Origin: Sphingopyxis sp. LC363
Lineage (GTDB): Bacteria > Pseudomonadota > Alphaproteobacteria > Sphingomonadales > Sphingomonadaceae
Direction of reading: 5' to 3'
DNA length: 64,000 nucleotides
Assembly: GCF_000756385.1 (NCBI RefSeq)
Contig: NZ_JNFC01000072.1
Location: forward strand, 62,001-126,000
Shown: in pieces, positions 2,194 to 16,244 of the stretch
Layout of the letters: each line of letters begins with the position of its first letter
Numbering within the stretch: the first letter of the stretch is position 1
The notes under the pieces: model-generated
Seen by the model: the letters and a program-made list of their open reading frames with translations, nothing else
What the model was told of the DNA's origin: nothing
Database searches by the model: none
Translations under genes and position numbers: made by a program

Positions 2194-2339
2194 ATCAATC
2201 AGTGTATGGCTTCTCGCCGCTGCGACCGTCGCCGTTCCCGTCCGCATTCGACTTTGTCGGCGGCCGGGGGGCGGCGGTCTTAGCGCACTCGATAATCGGT
2301 TACGAACGGAGGTTTAGGGCCAGGGAATCGCGAAGCCGG

Positions 2340-4679
2340 ATGCGGGAAAGGGAAGCAGCGCGCAAAAACGACGCGGACGATCCATCGGGCCCGTCCGGCG
2401 GGCGCGAGGCCTTCCGCAATCCCGGATGGCGTTGTGCGGTGCTGCTGGCCTCGATGTGCCTGTGGCCGTTCGTTGCTGCAGGCGCGCAGGACCTGCCTTC
2501 TGCCGGGGCGCTATCGCCGGACGCCGCCGACGGCGAGGCCGTCGCAGTCGGCGATGATCAGGAGATCGTCGTCACCGCCCGATATGGCGAGGCGCTCGTC
2601 GAACCCGAAATCGAGCTCGACGAGTTGCAGATCGATTCCTATGGTGCCTATTCGATCGGGGAACTGGTGCGCCGCATCACGCCGCTGACCGGGCGACCCG
2701 ACGAACGGCCCATCATTCTGATCAATGGCGAGCGCGTCGATTCGATTCAGGATTTGGCGAGCTTCCCGCCGGCCGCGCTCAAGCGTCTTGCGATCCTGCC
2801 GCCCGAAGCCGCCGGGCGATACGGCTATGCGGGCAACCAGCGCGTCGTGAACCTCGTCCTCAAACGACATTTCGTGTCTTGGGAGGCGCAGGCCAGCGTT
2901 AAGGCGCCGACCGCGGGGGGCCAAATTGGCGGCAGCGGATCGGCGGGGCGTTTCGTCATCGACGGCAAGGCGCGGTGGAGCGCGCAGGTCCAGCTTGCGG
3001 GCGAGAGCGCGCTGTTCGAAAGTTCGCGCGCCTCGTCGCCACCACGGGCGGATGACGACGCCTTTCGGTCGCTGCGTCCCGCGACGGAGCAGATGTCGGT
3101 CTCCGCGGGGCTTACGCGGCCGATCGGGCGCTTCAGTGCTTCCTTGAGCCTCAACGCCGCGGCAAGTGGCAGCCGGCAATCGCTGGGCCTGGCGCAGACC
3201 GACCCCGGCGCGCGCGCGCCGGTCCTGCTCGGCAGGCAAAATTCCCGGAATCTCGGTCTTTCGACCAGCTTGTCGGGGCCTCTCGCCGGCGGGCGCGCGA
3301 TCTTCAGCGCCAACTATACGCGCGTCTGGGCGAACGGCCGCATCGACCAGCCCGACGGGCTGTCGCCCGAAGGATTCGCTACAAGCCGCAACCGGTCGGT
3401 GAGCGAAAACTTGAGCACGCGGCTGACCTACAACCGATCGATCGCCGACCTGCCGGCCGGGCCGTTGACGGCGACGCTGACGGCGGGAATGAACCGCAAC
3501 CGCACGACCAGTCGGTTCAGGAACGGAATAGACGATGACGACCGCACCGTCCGCGTGGGACAGGACCGATATGACGGCCGGCTGTCGTTCGCGGTGCCGA
3601 TCGCCAGTCGAAACGAAAACCCGCATTCGCTGCTCGGTGACCTGGCGCTGGACTTCGCCGGCGGTCTGACCTTCGGTTCCCGCGAGACGTCGCGTCCGCG
3701 GTTCGAGCTGGGCGCGAACTGGAGCCCTGTTCCCGCACTCCGGTTCGACGGATCGGTCAGCTTCGCCAAGCTCGCGCCATCGCTCGATCAATTGACCGCC
3801 CCTTATTCAGAAGAGGTGCGACGCGTTTACGATTTCGCACGACAGGAAATCGCCGAACCGGTCTGGGTCACCGGCGGCAACCCCGATCTGGGATCGGGCC
3901 GACGTCGCACCTTGTCGCTGGGCGCCACTTTGCGTCCGTTCGATCCCCGGCTGCTCTCGCTGTCGGTCGAATATCGGGGACAGCAGTCGACGGGTGGCGC
4001 GGGCGGATTTCCCGGGGTTTCGCTGGCGGTCGAAGTCGCCTTTCCCGACCGGTTCGTCCGCGATGCGGCGGGGCGCCTGATCCGGGTGGACGCCCGGCCG
4101 ATCCGGATCGTGCGCGACACGACCGAACGGCTGAACAACAGCCTGACGCTGTTGCTTGCACCGGGGCGGAAGGAGGAAGGCGCCTCCGCTGCGTTGACGG
4201 GTCATCCCTGGCAATTCACCCTGTCTGTGAACCACGGCTGGTTGCTGCGCAGCGAACTGCTGACCAGCCTTGGCGCCCCCGTGATCGACCGGCTGGACGG
4301 CGATACGGCGCAGTCGCGGCACAATGTGAGCGTCCAGCTTGTGGCGGGCAAACCGGGCATGGGCGTGACGCTCGACGGCAATTGGCAGAGCGGATTCCGG
4401 CTCCGCGCGCCTGCCGGATCGGATGGCCAGCCGGATTATCTCCATCGCCCCGTGACGACGCTGAACCTCCGCCTCTTCGCCGAGCCCGAGCGCCTGCTGC
4501 GAACGCCGGAGAAGCCAGAATGGCTTTCGGATCTGAACATCTCGCTCGAAATCCGAAACCTGTTCAACAGCTATCGGCGCGTGGTGCTGGACGACGGGAG
4601 TGTTCCGGCGGGGTATCGGCGCTATGATGTGGACCCGCTCGGGCGCACGATCCAGCTTTCGGTACGGAAGCGGTTTTGA
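2340..4679 (+). CDS. TonB-dependent receptor-like outer-membrane protein
   Basis: The protein is about 779 residues from the ATG at 2340. A GTG at 2202 would add 46 residues but gives no better leader. A hydrophobic export segment (CAVLLASMCLWPFVAAGAQ) follows an unusually long charged N-region. A plug-like domain comes next, with the conserved turn IILINGERV and the stretch PPEAAGRYGYAGNQRVVNLVLK. The remainder is a long barrel ending in RKRF. Plug features place it in the TonB-dependent receptor superfamily, in a subgroup common in sphingomonads. The substrate is unknown. The true start codon is the main uncertainty. Confidence 0.75.
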   Translation: MREREAARKNDADDPSGPSGGREAFRNPGWRCAVLLASMCLWPFVAAGAQDLPSAGALSPDAADGEAVAVGDDQEIVVTARYGEALVEPEIELDELQIDSYGAYSIGELVRRITPLTGRPDERPIILINGERVDSIQDLASFPPAALKRLAILPPEAAGRYGYAGNQRVVNLVLKRHFVSWEAQASVKAPTAGGQIGGSGSAGRFVIDGKARWSAQVQLAGESALFESSRASSPPRADDDAFRSLRPATEQMSVSAGLTRPIGRFSASLSLNAAASGSRQSLGLAQTDPGARAPVLLGRQNSRNLGLSTSLSGPLAGGRAIFSANYTRVWANGRIDQPDGLSPEGFATSRNRSVSENLSTRLTYNRSIADLPAGPLTATLTAGMNRNRTTSRFRNGIDDDDRTVRVGQDRYDGRLSFAVPIASRNENPHSLLGDLALDFAGGLTFGSRETSRPRFELGANWSPVPALRFDGSVSFAKLAPSLDQLTAPYSEEVRRVYDFARQEIAEPVWVTGGNPDLGSGRRRTLSLGATLRPFDPRLLSLSVEYRGQQSTGGAGGFPGVSLAVEVAFPDRFVRDAAGRLIRVDARPIRIVRDTTERLNNSLTLLLAPGRKEEGASAALTGHPWQFTLSVNHGWLLRSELLTSLGAPVIDRLDGDTAQSRHNVSVQLVAGKPGMGVTLDGNWQSGFRLRAPAGSDGQPDYLHRPVTTLNLRLFAEPERLLRTPEKPEWLSDLNISLEIRNLFNSYRRVVLDDGSVPAGYRRYDVDPLGRTIQLSVRKRF

Positions 4680-4682
4680 TGG

Positions 4683-5162
4683 TCAGTTGACGCGGTCGCG
4701 GCTCTCGGTCGTGCGCGCCCATTCGGCGAGATGGCCATGGCGCTTGATCGTCTTGAGGCACACCACCGTCTTCAAGCGCTGGACGCCGGGCAGTTTCGAC
4801 AGATTGTGACGAAGCAGCTCGTCGAGATGGTCGGCCGATCGTGCGAAGATCTTCAGCAAATAGTCGCTTTCGCCCGCGGTCGTGTGGCACTCGACGACGG
4901 CGGGATGCGCGAGCACCGCGGCTTCGAATTCGATATGCGCGTCGAAGCGGATCTGCACCTCGACGAAGCTCTGCACCGCGAGGCCGATCGCGATCGGATC
5001 GAGGCGCGCGGCATAGCCTTCGATCACGCCGCTTTCCTCGAGATTTTTCACCCGCGACCAGCAGGGCGATTTGGAGAGGCCGACCTGCTCGCCGAGGTCG
5101 GCATAGGATTGGCGGCCGTCGCGTTCGAGCGCGGCGACGATCTTCCAGTCGAGCTTGTCCAT
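4683..5162 (-). CDS. Lrp/AsnC family transcriptional regulator
   Basis: This 159-residue protein starts MDKLDWKIVAALERDGRQS, the standard beginning of the AsnC-type winged helix, with the recognition helix around LSKSPCWSRVKNLEE. The C-terminal half is a RAM/ligand-binding domain (AVVECHTTAGESDYLLK). The frame is open upstream of the ATG at 5162 but carries no further Lrp features. The gene is divergent from the aromatic amino acid hydroxylase operon starting at 5333, and Lrp-family proteins often control neighbouring amino-acid catabolism genes in response to the amino acid. Control of that operon, probably by tryptophan or another aromatic amino acid, is an inference from position. Confidence 0.9.
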   Translation of the reverse strand: MDKLDWKIVAALERDGRQSYADLGEQVGLSKSPCWSRVKNLEESGVIEGYAARLDPIAIGLAVQSFVEVQIRFDAHIEFEAAVLAHPAVVECHTTAGESDYLLKIFARSADHLDELLRHNLSKLPGVQRLKTVVCLKTIKRHGHLAEWARTTESRDRVN

Positions 5163-5200
5163 GCGTTTCGTCCTTGAATGGCGGCAAGAAGCTAACATGG

Positions 5201-5332: not shown

Positions 5333-6205
5333 ATGGCCGCGACGCATATTTTCGACGTACCGCCCGAAGGCGTCGCGGCCGATTGGACAATGCCGCAAAA
5401 CTGGCGTGCCTTCACCGACGGGCAGCACAAGACCTGGCGCGCCCTTTTCGAACGGCAGTCGGCGGCGCTCGACGGCTATGCGTGCCGGTCGTTTCTCGGC
5501 GGGCTCGACATTCTTCGCAAGCTGAAGCCGGGGGTTCCCGATTTCGCCGAACTCAACGCGCTGCTGAAACCCGCGTCGGGGTGGGAAGTCGTCGCGGTGC
5601 CCGGCTGGATCCCGAACGAGCCTTTTTTCGAGCATCTCGCGCACCGGCGCTTTCCCGCGGCCAATTTCCTCCGCTCGCCCGAGCAGATTGCGTACAGCGA
5701 AGAGCCCGACATGTTTCACGACATTTTCGGGCATGTGCCGATGCTGACCGATCCGGCCTTTTCGGACTTCCTCGTCGCTTATGGGCAGGCGGGGCTGCGC
5801 GCTGAAAAGCTGGGCGCGTCGGATTTCCTCGGGCGGCTTTGGCTTTATACGGTCGAGTTCGGGCTGGTCGTCGAGGATGGCGAGCTTCGCGCCTTTGGCG
5901 GCGGGCTGATGTCCAGCCTCGCCGAAACCGTGTCGGCGCTGACCGCGCCCGAACCGCGGCGGATTTGGCTCGATATCGAGCGCGTGATGCGGACCAAATA
6001 TCATTTCGACCAGTTGCAGCAGACCTATTTCGTCGTTGCGGGCTTCGAGGAATTGCTGCGCGCGACCGAGGAAACCGACTTCGCCAGCATCTATCGCAAG
6101 ATTGCGGGCGAACCGGCGCTCGAACCGGGGGATGGCTGGCCCGGCGATCTGGCCTATGAAGGACGTCTGCCGGCCGCTCCGGCAGGCAGAGAGGCACGCT
6201 CATGA
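5333..6205 (+). CDS. Aromatic amino acid hydroxylase (PhhA family; possible tryptophan 5-hydroxylase)
   Basis: The 290-residue protein is a pterin-dependent, non-haem-iron aromatic amino acid hydroxylase. The iron ligands are visible as His129 and His134 (DMFHDIFGHVP) and Glu175 (YTVEFGL). A ribosome-binding site (GGAGAG) precedes the ATG at 5333. In phenylalanine hydroxylases a Trp stands four residues before the ligand Glu (human Trp326, Chromobacterium Trp180, from memory); here it is Leu171 (RLWLYTVEFG). Tryptophan hydroxylases carry Phe at this position, and changing the Trp is known to shift the preference towards tryptophan. With tryptophan 2,3-dioxygenase overlapping by four bases downstream, tryptophan may be the real substrate. 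The conservative name would be phenylalanine 4-monooxygenase. Confidence 0.85.
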   Translation: MAATHIFDVPPEGVAADWTMPQNWRAFTDGQHKTWRALFERQSAALDGYACRSFLGGLDILRKLKPGVPDFAELNALLKPASGWEVVAVPGWIPNEPFFEHLAHRRFPAANFLRSPEQIAYSEEPDMFHDIFGHVPMLTDPAFSDFLVAYGQAGLRAEKLGASDFLGRLWLYTVEFGLVVEDGELRAFGGGLMSSLAETVSALTAPEPRRIWLDIERVMRTKYHFDQLQQTYFVVAGFEELLRATEETDFASIYRKIAGEPALEPGDGWPGDLAYEGRLPAAPAGREARS

Positions 6206-7122
6206 TCAGGCAGACGCGCGACGGCGGCACCGAAATTTTCGAGACCGAGATCGACGGCGAGACGATCCAGTGGGACAATGGCCTGACCTATGCGCGCCAT
6301 ATCCAGACGCAGCAGCTTCTGTCGGCGCAGGTGCCGGTGTCGGACAAGCCCGACGAGATGCTGTTCATCATCATGCACCAGACGATGGAGCTGTGGCTCA
6401 AGCTCGTCCTGCATGAAGGCCGGATCGTCTATGACGCGATCAAGGGCGACCAGCTCGAGATCGCGGGCAAGGGGCTCGACCGGATCGCGACGATCCAGCG
6501 CCACATGATCCACAGCTGGGAAGTGCTCGCGACGCTGACACCGCACGACTTCCTGACCTTTCGCGGTTTCCTGCGCCGCGCGTCGGGCTTCCAGTCGCAG
6601 CAATATCGCGAGCTCGAATATCTGCTCGGCAACAAGCGCGAGGATATGATGATCGTCCACAAGGACGACCCGCAAGCGACTGAAAGGCTGCGTGCGACGT
6701 TCGAGGCTCCGTCGCTCTATGACGAGTTGCTGCGGCTGCTCGCGCGGCGCGGCTTCGCCATTCCCGCCGATCATCTCGAGCGCGACTGGACCAAATCCTA
6801 TGAGGCGTCGGAGGCGGTCGAGAAGGCATGGCTCGCGATCTACACCGATCCCGAGCATCACTGGGATCTCTACACCCTCGCCGAGAAGATCACCGCGCTC
6901 GAATATTATTTCCAGGAATGGCGCTTCAAGCACATGAAGACCGTCGCGCGCGTGATCGGGCACAAGCCGGGGACGGGCGGATCGTCGGGGGTCAATTACC
7001 TCGTCAAGGCGCTGAGCCTCAGCTTCTTCCCCGAACTCTGGTCGATGCGGACCGAGATGGTCGCGCCGCGGCAAGGTGGTGACTATGGGGGCGGCGATTA
7101 TTCCGAAGGGACGCGCGCATGA
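6202..7122 (+). CDS. kynA: Tryptophan 2,3-dioxygenase
   Basis: This 306-residue haem dioxygenase opens the indole ring to N-formylkynurenine. Family marks are DEMLFIIMHQTMELW (Phe55 and His59 of the substrate pocket), SGFQSQQYR, the LLGNK motif, and the C-terminal HKPGTGGSSGV segment; the axial haem His lies in the preceding FKHMKTV helix. The ATG at 6202 overlaps the hydroxylase stop (ATGA). Compared from memory with the Xanthomonas enzyme, the N-terminal pocket motif reads LTYARHIQTQQLLS instead of a LTYxxYLxLDQLLS pattern, so an indole-contacting Tyr appears as His33 and the conserved Asp as Gln37. Phe117 stands where the Xanthomonas enzyme has Tyr113. These changes may fit a substituted indole such as 5-hydroxytryptophan. 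Confidence 0.92.
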   Translation: MIRQTRDGGTEIFETEIDGETIQWDNGLTYARHIQTQQLLSAQVPVSDKPDEMLFIIMHQTMELWLKLVLHEGRIVYDAIKGDQLEIAGKGLDRIATIQRHMIHSWEVLATLTPHDFLTFRGFLRRASGFQSQQYRELEYLLGNKREDMMIVHKDDPQATERLRATFEAPSLYDELLRLLARRGFAIPADHLERDWTKSYEASEAVEKAWLAIYTDPEHHWDLYTLAEKITALEYYFQEWRFKHMKTVARVIGHKPGTGGSSGVNYLVKALSLSFFPELWSMRTEMVAPRQGGDYGGGDYSEGTRA

Positions 7123-7748
7123 GCCGGATCTGGGACATTTCGCAGCCGCTCCACGCCGCGGTGCCGGTGTGGCCGGGTGAGCCCGCCTTCGCGCTCCACA
7201 GCCATGCGGTGATCGGCGATGGGTGCCCGGTCAACGTCGGCGGCATGTTCACGCCGCTGCACGCAGGCACCCACGGCGATGCGCCGCTGCACTATGCCAA
7301 TGACGGCGTCTCGTCGGCCGACTGCGACCTCGATCCCTATATCGGACCGTGCGTGCTGCTCGACGTGCGCCATGCGCGCGGGAGGGTCGAGATTGCCGAT
7401 ATCGACTGGACCGCGATCGACGGTGCCGAGCGCGTGTTGCTGCGAACCTATGAGCGGTTTCCGCACGAGGCGTGGGACGGCGATTTCACCGCGATCGCCA
7501 GCGAAGTGATAGCGCGGCTCGGCAGCATCGGCGTGCGCCTGATCGGCACCGATGCGGCATCGCTCGACCCCGAACAATCGAAGACGCTCGACGCGCATCA
7601 GGCGGTGAAGGCCGCTGATATGCGAATATTGGAAGGGCTGGTGCTCGATGATGTGCCGCCGGGCCGGTACGAGCTCGTCGCGCTGCCGCTCCGCATCGTC
7701 GGCGCCGATGCCAGCCCGGTGCGCGCCATCCTGAGGGAAATCGCATGA
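7119..7748 (+). CDS. kynB: Kynurenine formamidase (arylformamidase)
   Basis: This 209-residue metal-dependent hydrolase of the cyclase family removes formate from N-formylkynurenine. The metal-binding signature is visible as HAGTHGDAPLHY near residues 48-59. The start reads MSRIWDISQPLHAAVPVWPGE, typical of bacterial KynB, and the length is normal. It overlaps both neighbours by ATGA junctions (7119 and 7745), so translation is probably coupled along the tryptophan operon. If the operon acts on 5-hydroxytryptophan, the substrate would be N-formyl-5-hydroxykynurenine. Confidence 0.93.
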   Translation: MSRIWDISQPLHAAVPVWPGEPAFALHSHAVIGDGCPVNVGGMFTPLHAGTHGDAPLHYANDGVSSADCDLDPYIGPCVLLDVRHARGRVEIADIDWTAIDGAERVLLRTYERFPHEAWDGDFTAIASEVIARLGSIGVRLIGTDAASLDPEQSKTLDAHQAVKAADMRILEGLVLDDVPPGRYELVALPLRIVGADASPVRAILREIA

Positions 7749-8986
7749 CCGAAACGATCTTCGCGACCGACGTGGCGGCGCTCGATGCAGCCGATCCGCT
7801 TGCTCATTTTCGCGGGCGCTTTCACCTGCGCGAGGGGCTGATCTATCTCGACGGCAATTCGCTTGGCGCGCTGCCCAAGGCGACGGGCGAGCGGCTCGCC
7901 GACGTGATCGGCGACGAGTGGGGCGAGGGGCTGATCACCTCGTGGCTCGGCGCCGAATGGTCGACCGCGCCGCGCCGGATCGGCGACAAGATCGGGCGGC
8001 TGATCGGCGCGAAGCCGGGAGAGATCGTCGCGACCGATTCGACTTCAGTCAATATCTTCAAGGCATTGACCGCCGCGCTTTCGTTGCGGCGTGAACGGAC
8101 GGTGATCCTGTCGGAAGCGACCAATTTCCCGACCGATGTCTATATGATGCAGGGGATCGAGGCTTTTTCGGGTGGGCGCGTGAAGGCGGTGACCGTCGCG
8201 CCGGACGATGTCGTCGATGCGCTGAACGATGATGTCGCGGTTCTGCTCTTGACGCAGGTCCACTACAAGTCGGGCCGTGTCCGCGACATGGCGGCAGTCA
8301 CGCGGGCGGCGCACGAAGCCGGGGCGCTCGTCGTTTGGGATCTGAGTCACAGCGCGGGCGCGATCCCGGTCGACCTCAATGGCGCGAACGCCGACTTCGC
8401 GATCGGCTGCGGTTACAAGTTCCTGAACGGCGGCCCCGGCGCGCCCGCCTATCTCTTCGCCGCGGCGCGGCACCACGGCGCCACGCCGGTGCTGTCGGGC
8501 TGGTTCGGTCATGCGCGGCCGTTCGATTTCGAGGAGGATTACGACCCCGCCGAGGGGATCGAACGCTTTCAGTGCGGCACGCCGCCGGTGCTGGGGCTGT
8601 CGGCGCTCGAAGTCGGCGTCGACCTGATGCTCGAAGCCGACATGGCCGAAATCCGCCGCAAATCGCTCGCGCTCGGCGACTTGTTCATCGAGCAGATGCA
8701 GCCGCTGTGCGACGTTTACGGCTTCGAACTGGTGAGCACGCAGGGGCATGCGGAGCGCGGCAGCCAGGTCGCCTATGCGCATCCGCAAGGCTATCAGATC
8801 GTGCAGGCGCTCAAGGAATTTGACGTGATCGCCGACTTCCGCGCACCCGACATTTTGCGCTTTGGACTGACGCCGCTTTACCTGCGCTATCGCGACATCG
8901 TCGAAACGGCCCGCCGGCTCGAAAAGGTCTGCGCGATGCGCGCGTGGGACAAGCCGCAATATCACCAACGGGCGGCAGTGACATGA
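7745..8986 (+). CDS. kynU: Kynureninase
   Basis: This 413-residue fold-type I PLP enzyme cleaves kynurenine to anthranilate and alanine. Visible marks are YLDGNSLGALPKAT near the N-terminus, the WDLSHSAGAIPVDL segment that carries the PLP-binding Asp, and the PLP lysine Lys225 in GCGYKFLNGGPG. Length and order match bacterial KynU. It overlaps kynB and the nitrilase gene by four bases on each side. Kynureninases also accept ring-hydroxylated kynurenines, so the product here could be 5-hydroxyanthranilate. No anthranilate hydroxylase or anthranilate dioxygenase follows in the operon. Confidence 0.94.
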   Translation: MTETIFATDVAALDAADPLAHFRGRFHLREGLIYLDGNSLGALPKATGERLADVIGDEWGEGLITSWLGAEWSTAPRRIGDKIGRLIGAKPGEIVATDSTSVNIFKALTAALSLRRERTVILSEATNFPTDVYMMQGIEAFSGGRVKAVTVAPDDVVDALNDDVAVLLLTQVHYKSGRVRDMAAVTRAAHEAGALVVWDLSHSAGAIPVDLNGANADFAIGCGYKFLNGGPGAPAYLFAAARHHGATPVLSGWFGHARPFDFEEDYDPAEGIERFQCGTPPVLGLSALEVGVDLMLEADMAEIRRKSLALGDLFIEQMQPLCDVYGFELVSTQGHAERGSQVAYAHPQGYQIVQALKEFDVIADFRAPDILRFGLTPLYLRYRDIVETARRLEKVCAMRAWDKPQYHQRAAVT

Positions 8987-9993
8987 GCGAGGCATCGGCG
9001 CCCTTCCTGCCCAAATCGCGCGTCGCCGCGGTGCAGGCCGCGCCCGTGTTTCTCGATACTGCGCGCACGATCGACAAGGCATGCGCGCTGATCGCGGAGG
9101 CCGCGGGCAATGGCGCTGAGCTTGTTTCCTTTCCCGAGGTGTTCGTTTCCGCCTATCCTTATTGGAACTGGCTGATGACGCCGATCGAGGGCGCCGAGTG
9201 GCACGAGCGGCTGTACCGCGCGTCGGTGCTGGTCGATGGCCCCGAGGTCGCGGCGCTGTGCGATGCCGCGCGCGATCATGGCTGCACCGTCGTCATCGGC
9301 ATCAACGAACGCGATCCGGTGAGCGTCGGCACGCTCTACAACACCAACCTGATCATCGGTGCCGACGGCAGCCTGCTCGGGCGGCATCGCAAGCTGGTGC
9401 CGACTTGGGCCGAGAAGCTGACTTGGGCGGGCGGCGACGGCGGCTCGATCCGCATTTACGATACCCCCGTCGGGCCGCTCGGCACGCTCGCATGCGGCGA
9501 AAATACCAACACGCTCGCGCGCTTCGCCTTGCTGTCGCAGGGCGAGCTGGTCCACGTCGCCAATTATATCGCGCTGCCCGTCGCGCCCGCGTCGTACAAT
9601 ATGGCCGAGGCGATCAAAATCCGCGCGACCGCGCACAGTTTCGAGGGCAAGGTCTTCACCATCGTCGCTTGTTCGGCGATAAGCCCCGAAATCATCGACG
9701 CAATGAGCGCCGATCGGCCGCAGAATCGCGAGTTGCTGTCGCGCCCGAACAGCGCCTTTTCGGGCGTGATCGACCCGCACGGCAATCTGGTCGGCGAGGC
9801 GCTGATTGATGACGAAGGCATCGTCTATGCCGATATTGACCTTGGCGAGTGCATCCGGCCGAAGCTGATGCACGACATCATCGGCGGCTATAACCGCTTC
9901 GACATTTTCAACCTGACGGTCGACCGGACCCCCCGCGCGTCGGCCCTGTTCGTCGACGAGCCGAGGCCCGCCGATTCCGAGGAGACGTCATGA
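8983..9993 (+). CDS. Nitrilase-superfamily carbon-nitrogen hydrolase
   Basis: The 336-residue protein has the nitrilase Glu-Lys-Cys triad: Glu52 in SFPEVFVSAYP, Lys137 in GRHRKLVPT and Cys171 in ACGENTNTLARF. The ATG at 8983 overlaps the kynU stop, and its own stop overlaps the next ATG at 9990. By sequence style it belongs to the branch annotated as nitrilase, but superfamily members hydrolyse nitriles, amides or carbamoyl groups. In this operon no nitrile-forming enzyme is present, whereas an amide (maleamate or maleamylpyruvate) would arise if the bicupin cleaved 5-hydroxyanthranilate. An amidase role is therefore inferred from context, and a classical nitrilase role remains possible. Confidence 0.85.
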   Translation: MSEASAPFLPKSRVAAVQAAPVFLDTARTIDKACALIAEAAGNGAELVSFPEVFVSAYPYWNWLMTPIEGAEWHERLYRASVLVDGPEVAALCDAARDHGCTVVIGINERDPVSVGTLYNTNLIIGADGSLLGRHRKLVPTWAEKLTWAGGDGGSIRIYDTPVGPLGTLACGENTNTLARFALLSQGELVHVANYIALPVAPASYNMAEAIKIRATAHSFEGKVFTIVACSAISPEIIDAMSADRPQNRELLSRPNSAFSGVIDPHGNLVGEALIDDEGIVYADIDLGECIRPKLMHDIIGGYNRFDIFNLTVDRTPRASALFVDEPRPADSEETS

Positions 9994-11126
9994 TGGCAGG
10001 CAATAGCACGATCGTCGATCCGCGTGACGATGTGCTCGGGCGGTCGCGCGTGACAGATACGCCCGAACTCGAAGCCTTTTATCAGGAGCTTGCGGGGCAT
10101 AATGCAGGCGCCTTCTGGAAACGCGCCAATGCGATCGAGCCGTGGGAGCCGGAGACGCGCTATCGCCCGACGCTCTGGCGCTATGCCGAGATGCGCGACA
10201 TGTGCCTGCGCGCGCTCGATCTGGTGAAGCCCGAAGAGGCGGGGCGCCGCGTCGTGACTTTGCTCAACGACAGCGATGCGGGGCGCGAGAATGTCGCGGT
10301 GTGCGGCTGGCTGTTCAGCGGCATGCAGGCGATGCGCCCCGGCGAAATCACCCCCGCGCACAAGCACACCGCGTCGGCGCACCGTTTCATCATGGAGGGG
10401 AAGGGCGCGTATACCGTCGTCGATGGGCATCATATCACGCTCGGCGCCAATGATTATGTGCTGACCCCGAACGGCGCCTGGCACGATCATGGCGTCCTCG
10501 CCGGGGGCGAGGTGTCGATCTGGCAGGACGGGCTCGATATCCCGCTGATGAACAGCCTCGAGACCAATTTCTACGCGGTCTACGACCAGCCCGCGCAAAC
10601 GGCGGCGTTTCCGGTCGACGATCTGCCGCTGAGCTATGGTGGGGCGGGGTTGCGGCCCGAGGGCGTGCCAGCGTGGGAGAAGCCTTATTCGCCGGTGCTG
10701 GTCTATCGCTGGGAAGCGACGCGCGACGCGCTGTGGAACCTCGCCAAAGTCTCCGAGGGCACGCCCTTCGACGGGCATATGGTCCGCTATTCGAACCCGC
10801 TGACCGGCGGCTGGGCGCTCCAGACGATGGGCGCGCATATGCAGATGCTCAAAGGCGGTTTCCGCGGAAAGGCGCACCGCCACACCGGCAATGTCGTCTA
10901 TAATGTCGCGGGCGGCCGCGGCTATTCGATCATCGGCGGCGAGCGGTTCGACTGGGCGACACATGACATTTTCTGCGTGCCCGCGTGGATGTGGCACGAG
11001 CATGTCAACCTCGATGCCTCTGAGGAAGCTTTCCTTTTCTCGTTCAATGACTTCCCTGTGATGGAGGCGCTCGGCGTCCGCATTGAGGAACCCTATTCCG
11101 AAAATGGCGGCCACCAGCCCGCCTGA
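9990..11126 (+). CDS. Gentisate 1,2-dioxygenase-like bicupin ring-cleavage dioxygenase
   Basis: This 378-residue protein contains two cupin domains. The N-terminal one has PAHKHTASAHRF (His124, His126) and WHDHG (His165), the iron-binding pattern of gentisate-type dioxygenases. The C-terminal one has KAHRHTGN and MWHEHVN. Family members cleave between the carboxylated carbon and its hydroxyl- or amino-bearing neighbour in gentisate, salicylates, 1-hydroxy-2-naphthoate or related compounds. Around the ligands, Ala128 and His131 stand where gentisate enzymes usually have Gln/Asn and Leu (HTQSALRF style, from memory), so the substrate may differ from gentisate. 5-Hydroxyanthranilate, the amino analogue of gentisate, fits the preceding kynurenine genes. 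Confidence 0.85.
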   Translation: MMAGNSTIVDPRDDVLGRSRVTDTPELEAFYQELAGHNAGAFWKRANAIEPWEPETRYRPTLWRYAEMRDMCLRALDLVKPEEAGRRVVTLLNDSDAGRENVAVCGWLFSGMQAMRPGEITPAHKHTASAHRFIMEGKGAYTVVDGHHITLGANDYVLTPNGAWHDHGVLAGGEVSIWQDGLDIPLMNSLETNFYAVYDQPAQTAAFPVDDLPLSYGGAGLRPEGVPAWEKPYSPVLVYRWEATRDALWNLAKVSEGTPFDGHMVRYSNPLTGGWALQTMGAHMQMLKGGFRGKAHRHTGNVVYNVAGGRGYSIIGGERFDWATHDIFCVPAWMWHEHVNLDASEEAFLFSFNDFPVMEALGVRIEEPYSENGGHQPA

Positions 11127-11142
11127 GCAGACAGGACTATCT

Positions 11143-12051
11143 ATGCGCTTTGTGACTTATCGCACGGTCGAGACCGAACCCCGGCTCGGCCTTATCCACG
11201 ACGGGCTTGTGATCGACGTCGAATATTTCGGCGACGCGATCGGGCAGGATCTGCCCTCGACGATGCTCGATTTCATCGACTTGGGCCCGATAGGTCTGCG
11301 TTTCCTCGGCGAAGCGATCGAAAGCGCGACGACCGCCGACCTGATCGGCACCTCGCTGCCCGAGGGTAATGTCGCCTTGCTCGCGCCGATCCCGCGCCCG
11401 CGCAAGAATATCTTCGGTATCGGTCTTAACTATACCGAGCATGTTGCTGAATCGGCGCGCAGCCTCGACACATCGAAAGAACTCCCGCAGCAGCCGGTGA
11501 TCTTCTCGAAGCCGCCGACCGCGGTCGTCGCGTGGAACGACCCGATCCGCCACAACGCGAAGGTCACGCAGCAGCTCGACTGGGAAACCGAACTTGCGGT
11601 GATCATCGGCAGCACCGCGCGCCACGTCGCGGAGGGCGACGCACTGAACCATGTGTTCGGCTACACCGTCATCAACGACGTGTCGGCGCGCGATTGCCGC
11701 CGCGCGGGGCAGTGGATCGTATCGAAGGGGCAGGACAGCTTCGCGCCGATGGGGCCGTGCATCGTGACTGCCGACGAGATCGGCGATCCGCACAACCTCA
11801 ACATCCTGACGCATGTGAACGGGGTCGAGAAGCAGAACAGCAACACCCGCTTCATGCTGTTCAACGTGCCGCAGTTGATCGCCGACATTTCGGGCGTGAT
11901 GACGCTCGAACCCGGCGATATCATCGCGACCGGAACCCCGGCGGGGGTCGGCGCGGGGCGTGATCCGCAGGAATTCATGTGGCCGGGCGACGTCGTCGAA
12001 TGCACCGTCGAAGGCATCGGCACGCTCCGTAATCCGATCGTCGCGGTCTGA
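11143..12051 (+). CDS. FAH-family hydrolase (maleylpyruvate/maleamylpyruvate hydrolase candidate)
   Basis: This 302-residue fumarylacetoacetate hydrolase-family protein starts at the ATG at 11143, 16 bases after the bicupin stop. The family core is visible: GIGLNYTEHV, the metal-binding DWETELAVIIG (Glu-x-Glu), GYTVINDVSARD, KGQDSFAPMGP and GDIIATGTPAGVG. Members hydrolyse the carbon-carbon bond of acylpyruvates or decarboxylate related compounds. Placed after a gentisate-type dioxygenase and before a maleate isomerase, it most likely releases pyruvate from the unisomerised cis ring-cleavage product. No maleylpyruvate isomerase gene is present in the operon, which agrees with that route. Confidence 0.88.
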   Translation: MRFVTYRTVETEPRLGLIHDGLVIDVEYFGDAIGQDLPSTMLDFIDLGPIGLRFLGEAIESATTADLIGTSLPEGNVALLAPIPRPRKNIFGIGLNYTEHVAESARSLDTSKELPQQPVIFSKPPTAVVAWNDPIRHNAKVTQQLDWETELAVIIGSTARHVAEGDALNHVFGYTVINDVSARDCRRAGQWIVSKGQDSFAPMGPCIVTADEIGDPHNLNILTHVNGVEKQNSNTRFMLFNVPQLIADISGVMTLEPGDIIATGTPAGVGAGRDPQEFMWPGDVVECTVEGIGTLRNPIVAV

Positions 12052-12058
12052 GCGCGAT

Positions 12059-12811
12059 ATGACACGCCCCATTCGCATCGGGCAGATCGTGCCCAGCTCG
12101 AACGTCACGATGGAAACCGAAATCCCCGCGCTGCTCCGCGCGCGCGAGGCCATCGCGCCCGAACGCTTCACCTTCCACTCGTCGCGGATGCGGATGAAGA
12201 AGGTGACGAAGGAAGAACTGGCGGCGATGGACGCCGACTCCGACCGCTGCGCGCTCGAATTGTCCGACGCCGCGGTCGATGTGCTCGGCTATGCCTGCCT
12301 CGTCGCGATCATGAGCATGGGCGAAGGGTATCATCGCGTTTCAGAAGCCCGCCTCCACCAGCGCACGGTCGAGAATGGCCATGCGGCGCCCGTCGTCACC
12401 AGCGCCGGCGCGCTGATCGAGGGGCTGAAGGCGCTGCGGGCGAAGCGCATCGCGCTAGTCGCGCCCTATATGAAGCCGCTGACCGAGATGGTCGTCGGCT
12501 ATATCGCAAATGAGGGCGTCGAGGTCGCCGACTGGCTCGCGCTCGAAATCCCCGACAATCTGGAGGTCGCGGCGCAGGATCCCGCCAAGCTGCTCGACCA
12601 TTACAAGCGGCTCGACCTGACCGGCGTCGACGCGCTCGTCCTTTCCGCGTGCGTCCAGATGCCGTCGTTGCCGGCGGTGCAGCGGATCGAGGATGCGATC
12701 GGGAAACCCGTGATATCGGCGGCGATTTGCACCGCGCACCAGATGCTCGCGCGGCTCGGGCTTGCGACGCGGGTTCCGGGCGCCGGCGCGCTGCTTTCCG
12801 GCCGCTATTGA
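12059..12811 (+). CDS. Maleate cis-trans isomerase (Asp/Glu racemase superfamily)
   Basis: The 250-residue protein carries the two active-site cysteines expected of maleate isomerase: Cys80 in LGYACLVAIMSMG and Cys198 in VLSACVQMPSLPAV. It begins IRIGQIVPSSNVTMETEIP, the family N-terminus with the substrate-binding Asn. The ATG at 12059 follows the FAH stop by seven bases. Maleate isomerase converts maleate to fumarate and so delivers the end product of the operon to the citric acid cycle. Arylmalonate decarboxylase-like alternatives in the same superfamily are less likely given the neighbours. Confidence 0.88.
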   Translation: MTRPIRIGQIVPSSNVTMETEIPALLRAREAIAPERFTFHSSRMRMKKVTKEELAAMDADSDRCALELSDAAVDVLGYACLVAIMSMGEGYHRVSEARLHQRTVENGHAAPVVTSAGALIEGLKALRAKRIALVAPYMKPLTEMVVGYIANEGVEVADWLALEIPDNLEVAAQDPAKLLDHYKRLDLTGVDALVLSACVQMPSLPAVQRIEDAIGKPVISAAICTAHQMLARLGLATRVPGAGALLSGRY

Positions 12812-15260: not shown

Positions 15261-16244
15261 CTAGCTAGGAAGCTGCTGGCTCGAGCAATGGAAGCTGCCG
15301 CCGCCGACGATGATCCCGCGCGCAGGAACGCCGACCGCGCGGCGGTCGGGGAACAGTGCGGCAAGGGTGTCGATCGCAGTCTGATCGTTAGGAACGCCAT
15401 AGATCGGGACGATCACGACGCTGTTGCCGATATAGAAGTTCATATAGCTCGCCGCGGCGATTTCGCCGCCGATCTCGACCCGGCCGGGCGATGGGAGGTC
15501 GACGATTTCGACCCCGCCGAACGCCGCGGTGCGCGCGCGGGCATCGGCATAGATATGCGCATTGGGATCGTCCTCGCCCGCCGCGACCGGCAGCGCGAGC
15601 CGGCCTTCGCCGACAAAGCGCGCGAGATTGTCGACATGGCCGTCGGTGTGATCGCCGACGAGGCCGTTGCCGAGCCACAACAGCCGCTCGATGCCGAGTG
15701 ACTGGTGCAGCCGCACCGCAATATCCTCGCGCGTCAGCGACGGATTGCGGTTGAGATTGAGCAGGCATTCCTCGGTGGTGACGCAAAGGCCGCTACCATC
15801 GACATCGATGCCGCCGCCTTCGAGCACCCAGTCCTGATCGTCGACCGGCAGCCCGCTTTCGCGTGCCAGCGCGGCGCCGATTTCCTGGTCGCCCGGCATG
15901 ACGAACTTCTCGCCCCACCAGTTGAATTTGAAATTGCGCGCGCGGCGTCCCGTGCCCGTTCCCGCGATGATCGGCCCAGTATCGCGCAGCCAGATGTCGC
16001 CCAAGGGCTGGACGAGAATCTTCACGCCCGGATCGACGAGCGCGGCGGCGATGTCCGCCTGCCGCGCATCGTTGACCACGAGCCGCACCTCTTCGCCGCG
16101 GCCGCCGTCGTGGACGGCGTTGGCGAAGGCGGCGACGTCGCGCCGTCCTTCATCGATCGCCCCCGACCATTCCTCTGCGAGGTGCGGGAAGCCAATCCAC
16201 ACGGCATCGTGCGGCGCCCATTCGGCAGGCATGCGTAGGGTCAT
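15261..16244 (-). CDS. aguA: Agmatine deiminase
   Basis: The 327-residue protein belongs to the peptidylarginine deiminase-like fold and converts agmatine to N-carbamoylputrescine. Marks are PAEWAPHDAVWIGFP at the start, DIWLRDTGP, the central WVLEGGGIDVDG and GDHTDGHVDN motifs, and the C-terminal VGGGSFHC with the catalytic Cys. The length is somewhat short of some family members but all motifs are present. A palindromic repeat lies in the gap to the upstream peptidase gene. A second in-frame ATG four codons in is an alternative start. Confidence 0.95.
   Translation of the reverse strand: MTLRMPAEWAPHDAVWIGFPHLAEEWSGAIDEGRRDVAAFANAVHDGGRGEEVRLVVNDARQADIAAALVDPGVKILVQPLGDIWLRDTGPIIAGTGTGRRARNFKFNWWGEKFVMPGDQEIGAALARESGLPVDDQDWVLEGGGIDVDGSGLCVTTEECLLNLNRNPSLTREDIAVRLHQSLGIERLLWLGNGLVGDHTDGHVDNLARFVGEGRLALPVAAGEDDPNAHIYADARARTAAFGGVEIVDLPSPGRVEIGGEIAAASYMNFYIGNSVVIVPIYGVPNDQTAIDTLAALFPDRRAVGVPARGIIVGGGSFHCSSQQLPS

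Follow-up and report, generated by a model that had tools for sequence, protein, structure and literature searches.

A putative tryptophan 5-hydroxylase heads a candidate operon for tryptophan catabolism in Sphingopyxis sp. LC363

Introduction

Biopterin-dependent aromatic amino acid hydroxylases (AAAHs) are represented in bacteria by PhhA and the phenylalanine hydroxylase (PAH) of C. violaceum and in animals by the tryptophan hydroxylases TPH1 and TPH2. Bacterial PAHs have been the subject of protein engineering (PMC4029321, PMC11885754, PMC5856393), including the combined exchange of residues W180 and L101 in the C. violaceum enzyme (PMC4029321). According to excerpts of two articles from 2022, a gene for a tryptophan hydroxylase had yet to be identified in bacteria (PMC9048412), and a natural prokaryotic pathway had not been reported (PMC9509612).

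Tryptophan breakdown through the kynurenine pathway involves tryptophan 2,3-dioxygenase (TDO), the arylformamidase KynB and the kynureninase KynU and leads to anthranilate, whose further routes have been reviewed (PMC4539516). Gentisate and 5-aminosalicylate 1,2-dioxygenases, the lower nicotinate pathway and routes involving salicylyl-CoA 5-hydroxylase provide additional points of comparison. 5-Hydroxyanthranilate is named in excerpts of two articles only in reference to Cain 1968 (PMC7118221, PMC13280823), and no description of a tryptophan 5-hydroxylation route was found in the literature searched, which consisted mainly of non-subscription articles and partly of top-ranked matches only (further sources: PMC3534580, PMC7796270, PMC12633357).

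Here, we analyze a stretch of 64,000 nucleotides (the window) from contig NZ_JNFC01000072.1 of Sphingopyxis sp. LC363. It contains an operon whose genes, judged by sequence, probably specify the complete breakdown of L-tryptophan by way of ring 5-hydroxylation. The predicted product of its first gene would represent the bacterium's own version of the enzyme by which animals start serotonin synthesis.

Results and discussion

Organization of the operon

The AAAH gene (5333-6205, forward strand) comprises an open frame of 290 codons and heads an eight-gene operon whose remaining members, all on the same strand, encode a TDO, KynB, KynU, a nitrilase-family protein, a bicupin, an FAA hydrolase and a maleate isomerase. 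Four-base overlaps at positions 6202, 7119, 7745, 8983 and 9990 chain the first six genes, the first of them bearing out a previous sequence-only reading of this DNA, which had described a direct overlap of the AAAH gene (end at 6205) with the TDO gene (start at 6202). KynB (7119-7748, forward strand; TIGR03035, 240.4 bits, cut-off 223.05) and KynU (7745-8986, forward strand; TIGR01814, 288.5 bits, cut-off 246.4; closest structure 1qz9) both exceed the cut-offs of their family models, with 5-hydroxyanthranilate and alanine as the predicted products of the latter. A gene for an Lrp/AsnC-family regulator (4683-5177, reverse strand; Pfam AsnC_trans_reg and HTH_24/HTH_AsnC) is located divergently upstream. 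A promoter scan found none, with 1.6 hits expected by chance. The dN/dS ratios range from 0.06 to 0.18 for all eight operon genes (six pairs each), and all of them look to be under purifying selection, giving the operon the appearance of a conserved, selected system.

Two neighboring features deserve mention. A large open frame (2202-4679), flanked by the regulator gene and a fragment of a TonB receptor, has, by eye, the look of an outer-membrane beta-barrel protein; its segment 2295-4679 gave no Pfam or NCBIfam match. Further downstream lies a gene of the Porphyromonas-type peptidyl-arginine deiminase family (15261-16244, reverse strand; PAD_porph, 337 bits).

A hydroxylase with leucine at the selectivity site

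The AAAH possesses both hallmarks of the biopterin-dependent aromatic amino acid hydroxylases, a Biopterin_H domain (Pfam, 133.4 bits, cut-off 22.7) and a 2-His-1-Glu iron triad (His129, His134, Glu175), which is unchanged in 29 aligned rows. It scores above the cut-off of the phenylalanine 4-monooxygenase model TIGR01267 (280.6 versus 264.75 bits) and far below that of the full-length animal TPH model TIGR01270 (103.8 versus 705.5 bits). An AlphaFold2 model (mean pLDDT 90.8, with lower values of 72 and 74 in the blocks spanning residues 111-130) has its best structural match in C. violaceum PAH (Z 37.9, rmsd 1.8, 270 aligned residues, 44% identity). Because the iron triad is invariant and the model matches this enzyme, the AAAH looks intact.

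The sequence-only reading had pointed out a leucine at residue 171, four residues before the iron ligand Glu175, at a site occupied by Trp in phenylalanine hydroxylases and by Phe in tryptophan hydroxylases. Translation and alignment confirm this position, and the two contrasting residues are indeed seen in the reference structures: Leu171 aligns with the Trp of the motif RLYWYTVEFG in C. violaceum PAH (1ltu), known as W180 in the literature (PMC4029321), and human TPH1 (3hf6, CYFFTVEFG) has Phe at this selectivity site. The window enzyme thus carries neither the Trp of phenylalanine hydroxylases nor the Phe of tryptophan hydroxylases, its Leu being smaller than the Phe of TPH1. While sharing the fold and iron triad of PhhA and C. 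violaceum PAH, it differs from the latter in having Leu171 for Trp180, Trp92 (in its group Trp, Phe or Val) for Leu101 and other group-fixed changes, and from both in residing in a tryptophan operon. With TPH1 and TPH2, it has in common the fold (Z ~27 for the model), the predicted reaction and a residue smaller than Trp at the selectivity site, but it has Leu instead of Phe, comprises 290 residues without a regulatory domain and belongs to a catabolic operon rather than to serotonin synthesis.

Engineering work shows how far the residue itself can be interpreted. In the excerpted results on the Xanthomonas PAH (XcPAH), the W179F and W179Y variants made 5-hydroxytryptophan (5-HTP; 190 and 122 mg/L), whereas W179L, W179I and W179M gave none, the W179L variant having been assayed in vivo (PMC11885754). 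Leu171 would therefore need the help of other changes, or the substrate may be kynurenine rather than tryptophan. A simple helping role of the Trp92 site is disfavored, because exchanges of L98 in XcPAH, which probably occupies the same site, lowered 5-HTP production by the W179F variant from 190 mg/L to 155 (L98F), 117 (L98Y) and 96 mg/L (L98V) (PMC11885754). The proposal of a natural tryptophan hydroxylase made in the sequence-only reading consequently survives in a modified form: the argument from the residue fails when taken alone, as Leu at this site is not sufficient for tryptophan hydroxylation, and it is the operon context, together with the co-occurrence of Leu171 with the operon and the altered TDO described below, that carries the case.

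Leu171 tracks the operon

We compared the residue-171 site in the best 80 of at least 583 AAAH loci, in all of which it was readable. Leu was present in all 24 AAAHs accompanied by TDO-KynB-KynU and Trp in all 56 others, splitting this set of the best 80 into 24 Leu types and 56 Trp types. TDO, KynB and KynU genes were found near 24 of 24 Leu types and near 1, 0 and 0, respectively, of the 56 Trp types, seven of whose loci are shorter than 12 kb and cover the surroundings only in part; the lone TDO near a Trp-type AAAH (locus L031) is 37% identical and encoded on the opposite strand. Among the same 24 Leu-type loci, the nitrilase-family gene, the bicupin and a relative of the Lrp/AsnC regulator each occur in 20, the FAA hydrolase in 21 and the isomerase in 17, with no isomerase found in the available stretch of the other seven. 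In three of them (L017, L019 and L020), the AAAH gene has been inverted or relocated, yet it still lies close to the operon genes.

In an unrooted tree of 76 rows, obtained by a quick search under a simple model and with three long-branch joins flagged, the 31 Leu-type rows cluster together, apart from 45 Trp types (SH-aLRT 99), and their nearest group consists of sphingomonad Trp-type AAAHs. Copies of the window sequence, one copy of another row and those of loci L030-L080 whose numbers are not multiples of four were left out. Site 92 is occupied by Trp, Phe or Val in the 31 Leu types versus Leu in 27 sphingomonad Trp types. Leucine in proven phenylalanine hydroxylases would speak against the sequence-only reading; outside the operon group, it appears in 0 of the 76 rows, and C. 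violaceum PAH, the one proven phenylalanine hydroxylase aligned residue by residue, has Trp. Unlike TPH1 and TPH2, the AAAH probably originated from bacterial PAHs; the tree includes no animal enzyme. In a survey of 296 genomes, 239 had matches, and among the 30 loci listed for them the Leu type was seen in five genomes (G000, G122, G320, G360 and G385). One Leu-type AAAH, from Sphingobium cyanobacteriorum (L018:9995-11149), is fused to a domain of pterin-4a-carbinolamine dehydratase, a cofactor-recycling partner.

The score above the TIGR01267 cut-off would also suit an ordinary phenylalanine hydroxylase that tolerates the W-to-L exchange and is co-transcribed with a plain kynurenine pathway, be it by accident or for joint aromatic amino acid breakdown. 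We consider this explanation very improbable, given that Leu follows the operon so strictly (24 of 24 versus 0 of 56), that the genes stay close even after rearrangement, that the genome already has a Trp-type AAAH and that anthranilate, the product of a plain kynurenine pathway, lacks a 5-OH with which the conserved Asp of the bicupin could interact.

Fixed changes in the operon TDO

The TDO (6202-7122, forward strand; Pfam Trp_dioxygenase), whose predicted role is the ring opening of 5-hydroxytryptophan, scores below the cut-off of TIGR03036 (354.4 versus 390.7 bits) but keeps the active-site residues His55, Arg117 and Thr254 (XcTDO numbering). Comparing 29 operon TDOs from other loci (L116 and copies left out) with 34 canonical TDOs, we found that, of 90 positions conserved to at least 90% in the canonical proteins, five are switched and fixed in all 29 operon TDOs: Tyr to His33, Leu to Thr36, His to Pro50, Tyr to Phe117 and Gly to Arg125. 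The Phe117 switch means little on its own, because human TDO also has Phe there. His33 aligns with Tyr27 of XcTDO, which we take to correspond to Tyr45 of human TDO via the pattern Y-x-x-Y-L. In the human enzyme, the segment with Tyr42, Tyr45 and Leu46 of the neighboring subunit forms part of the pocket for the tryptophan side chain (PMC5071832). By alignment, the His33 switch would thus affect a position that helps to line this pocket.

Five fixed switches would be unexpected if the substrate of the TDO were plain tryptophan, and they bear directly on the main rival explanation, according to which the TDO first acts on plain tryptophan and the AAAH then adds a hydroxyl group to kynurenine at C5, the position para to its amino group, with all later steps unchanged. 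We know of no AAAH that uses kynurenine, and such a sequence of events offers no reason for altering the tryptophan side-chain pocket of the TDO. On the other hand, either order yields 5-hydroxykynurenine, and both the small size of Leu compared to the Phe of human TPH1 and the lack of 5-HTP reported for the W-to-L variant in the excerpts on XcPAH (PMC11885754) leave room for a longer substrate. Hydroxylation of kynurenine appears unlikely, if conceivable. Under the preferred tryptophan version and the kynurenine version alike, it is this AAAH that would place the 5-OH on the ring.

The bicupin and the lower half of the route

The bicupin (9990-11126, forward strand) resembles gentisate 1,2-dioxygenases and is a predicted 5-hydroxyanthranilate 1,2-dioxygenase. 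Its residues R86, Q113, R132 and D180 match R83, Q108, R127 and D174 of SDO, whose G106 and A125 are also kept, and the iron-binding histidines are H124, H126 and H165; at the W104 site of SDO, it has Phe109. According to excerpts of a study on SDO/5NSDO residues, Asp174 and Trp104 are responsible for binding gentisate at its 5-OH (PMC10306065). Apart from Phe109, the bicupin has the carboxylate- and 5-OH-binding residues and iron ligands typical of gentisate 1,2-dioxygenases, but it falls short of the cut-off of their model TIGR02272 (296.2 versus 442.1 bits) as well as that of the model for the 5-aminosalicylate 1,2-dioxygenase MabB (NF049978; 243.2 versus 650 bits). Within the operon, the AAAH is the only hydroxylase able to supply a 5-OH. 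By itself, D180 is weak evidence, because the same residue would also have been inherited from an ordinary gentisate dioxygenase. An ordinary kynurenine pathway ending in anthranilate was rejected as a reading of the operon, as the bicupin keeps the 5-OH-reading residue.

The nitrilase-superfamily C-N hydrolase (8983-9993, forward strand; CN_hydrolase, 135.3 bits), whose start we assign to the ATG at position 8983 rather than to the GTG at 8944, where the listed frame opens, is a predicted maleamate amidase. Its closest solved relatives are nitrilases, and it scores below the cut-off of the Nit6803 model (226.8 versus 502.6 bits); enzymes of the nitrilase clade mostly favor nitriles, which speaks against this assignment. 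To assess its association with the bicupin, we used a search of 249 family genomes that yielded 19 places with bicupins of at least 53% identity, including that of the window, and compared the other 18. A nitrilase-family gene lies within 2.4 kb of 17 of these 18 bicupins (the exception being L117) and near 0 of 15 ordinary gentisate-type bicupins (30-41% identity; 7-19 kb examined for each), a difference with a Fisher p of 1.5e-8, whose strength is overstated because related loci were treated as independent. The genomes also contain a second bicupin type with 52-59% identity. Since one tryptophan operon (L111; no isomerase in the available stretch) carries a bicupin of this type (58%), the two types appear to serve the same function.

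These data are relevant to the possibility that the lower half proceeds via free gentisate, with 5-hydroxyanthranilate being deaminated, the bicupin cleaving gentisate and the nitrilase-family protein acting elsewhere. A conversion of 5-hydroxyanthranilate to gentisate has been reported in Nocardia opaca (Cain 1968, according to excerpts of the review PMC4539516), 3bu7, the solved structure most similar to the bicupin (518 bits), bears the name gentisate dioxygenase, and the gentisate-binding residues are kept. However, no aryl-amine hydrolase was recognized in the operon with Pfam and NCBIfam, the bicupin lies below the gentisate dioxygenase cut-off, and the C-N hydrolase that so regularly accompanies it (17 of 18 versus 0 of 15) would have no obvious job on a nitrogen-free substrate, making a gentisate intermediate quite unlikely. 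We thus favor direct cleavage of 5-hydroxyanthranilate.

The FAA hydrolase (11143-12051, forward strand; FAA_hydrolase, 237.8 bits), a predicted maleamylpyruvate hydrolase, has no NCBIfam model above cut-off; its relatives include the maleylpyruvate hydrolase 6jvv (122.9 bits), with HpaG-type enzymes scoring higher. The last gene (12059-12811, forward strand) encodes a maleate cis-trans isomerase by similarity, with 4fq7 as the best structure match (348.7 bits), 2xec as a second solved maleate isomerase relative (234.2 bits) and Pfam Amdase above cut-off, but no NCBIfam model reaching its cut-off. 4fq7 originates from nicotine breakdown, where it acts after a maleamate amidase.

Proposed route

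Each operon gene fits one step of a single route, with none left over: tryptophan would be converted via 5-hydroxytryptophan, 5-hydroxykynurenine, 5-hydroxyanthranilate, maleamylpyruvate, maleamate and maleate to fumarate. With the aid of tetrahydropterin, iron(II) and O2, the AAAH would hydroxylate tryptophan to 5-hydroxytryptophan, with the W-to-L exchange opening the pocket in concert with other clade-fixed changes, and the re-shaped TDO would then open the indole ring to give N-formyl-5-hydroxykynurenine. KynB and KynU, whose families are clear and whose substrates are predicted, would produce 5-hydroxykynurenine and then 5-hydroxyanthranilate plus alanine. Cleavage between C1 and C2 by the bicupin would release maleamylpyruvate, an amide because C2 bears NH2 instead of OH. 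The FAA hydrolase may split this product into pyruvate and maleamate, and the nitrilase-family enzyme may hydrolyze maleamate to maleate and ammonia, leaving the putative isomerase to form fumarate. We infer the chemistry of steps 1 (AAAH), 2 (TDO), 5 (bicupin), 6 (FAA hydrolase) and 7 (nitrilase family) from protein families, residues and gene company.

The operon shares the families and order of TDO, KynB and KynU with the kynurenine pathway to anthranilate, but adds an AAAH before them and a bicupin with a 5-OH-binding Asp after them, and its TDO is a below-cut-off variant with fixed switches. The ring-cleavage enzyme belongs to the family of gentisate and 5-aminosalicylate 1,2-dioxygenases while lying below both cut-offs. 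With the lower nicotinate pathway via maleamate, the operon has the isomerase in common (4fq7), whereas its amidase step is assigned to a nitrilase-family protein.

With some reservation, we are inclined to regard the AAAH as the first natural dedicated bacterial tryptophan hydroxylase, which arose by PAH duplication within the Sphingomonadales and starts an undescribed complete route with a 5-hydroxytryptophan-adapted TDO and a new, amide-making 5-hydroxyanthranilate 1,2-dioxygenase. If true, bacteria would have independently acquired the reaction that yields the serotonin precursor, using it for nutrition, and arrived at a second solution to the selectivity site, with Leu instead of Phe. Sphingopyxis and its kin would then possess a new tryptophan catabolic route, and a natural bacterial enzyme would be at hand for 5-HTP production.

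Host genome and distribution

The second AAAH of the host genome (G000:C11) has Trp at the residue-171 site and is taken to be an ordinary phenylalanine hydroxylase. Since a 4-hydroxyphenylpyruvate dioxygenase is also present, phenylalanine breakdown is probably covered elsewhere in the genome. There is a single TDO, that of the operon, and one pterin carbinolamine dehydratase. A search for 3-HAO gave no match in the host genome, which shows little, as the control genomes were silent too. The best match to the anthranilate dioxygenase model (452.3 bits) lies below the cut-off of 671.9, so anthranilate may have another fate in this genome. Five matches to the alpha-subunit model of anthranilate dioxygenase, all below cut-off, cluster within ~37 kb (G000:C67:68006-105055).

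The operon from AAAH to FAA hydrolase is present in five of the 249 family genomes (G000, G122, G127, G138 and G149; the AAAH of G138 was read in L020, from the same genome), a count that misses operons without a bicupin, and it includes the isomerase in G000, G122, G127 and G138. Type strains with the operon include Sphingopyxis italica and S. panaciterrae (L005, L015). Operon TDOs are at least 69% identical to that of the window. Apart from the TDO of the window itself, the highest identity reached was 57% in 337 genomes of the class and, among the matches listed, 54% in 398 genomes of the phylum. These sparse genome samples only suggest that the operon is confined to the Sphingomonadales. 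All 45 plasmid records with AAAH matches stay below 60% identity. Three Erythrobacter-type loci (L022, L023 and L024) contain AAAH-TDO-KynB-KynU, and no bicupin homolog was found in their genomes, whose completeness is not stated, at a threshold of 1e-20, which counts against the proposed route; the product must go elsewhere, or the genomes are incomplete.

Related gene clusters

In 10 of 15 second-type loci, including L117, the bicupin gene has a gene for a bifunctional salicylyl-CoA 5-hydroxylase within ~8 kb, which scored above the cut-off of its model in both of two loci tested; an ordinary-type locus (L195) has a 43% partial match. Salicylyl-CoA 5-hydroxylase is a flavoenzyme that acts on a CoA ester, whereas the hydroxyl group in the window operon would come from an AAAH acting on an amino acid; both settings have in common a bicupin (of the second type, with 52-58% identity, near the salicylyl-CoA 5-hydroxylase) and an FAA hydrolase, mostly with a nitrilase-family gene. 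In L107 (8046-13449) and L106 (7589-14185), a bicupin, an FAA hydrolase and a nitrilase-family gene lie near the salicylyl-CoA 5-hydroxylase. This sister cluster, which is also found in L105, L108, L109, L112, L113, L114, L117 (here without the nitrilase-family gene) and L118, perhaps processes anthranilate via the CoA ester. Finally, L116 (791-14096) encodes a distant TDO-family protein (42%) in which the His55 position is aligned to Thr. It is accompanied by bicupin, FAA hydrolase, nitrilase-family, kynureninase, flavin reductase-like and amine oxidase-like genes and possibly belongs to a further route of the tryptophan type, although this stretch contains no AAAH.
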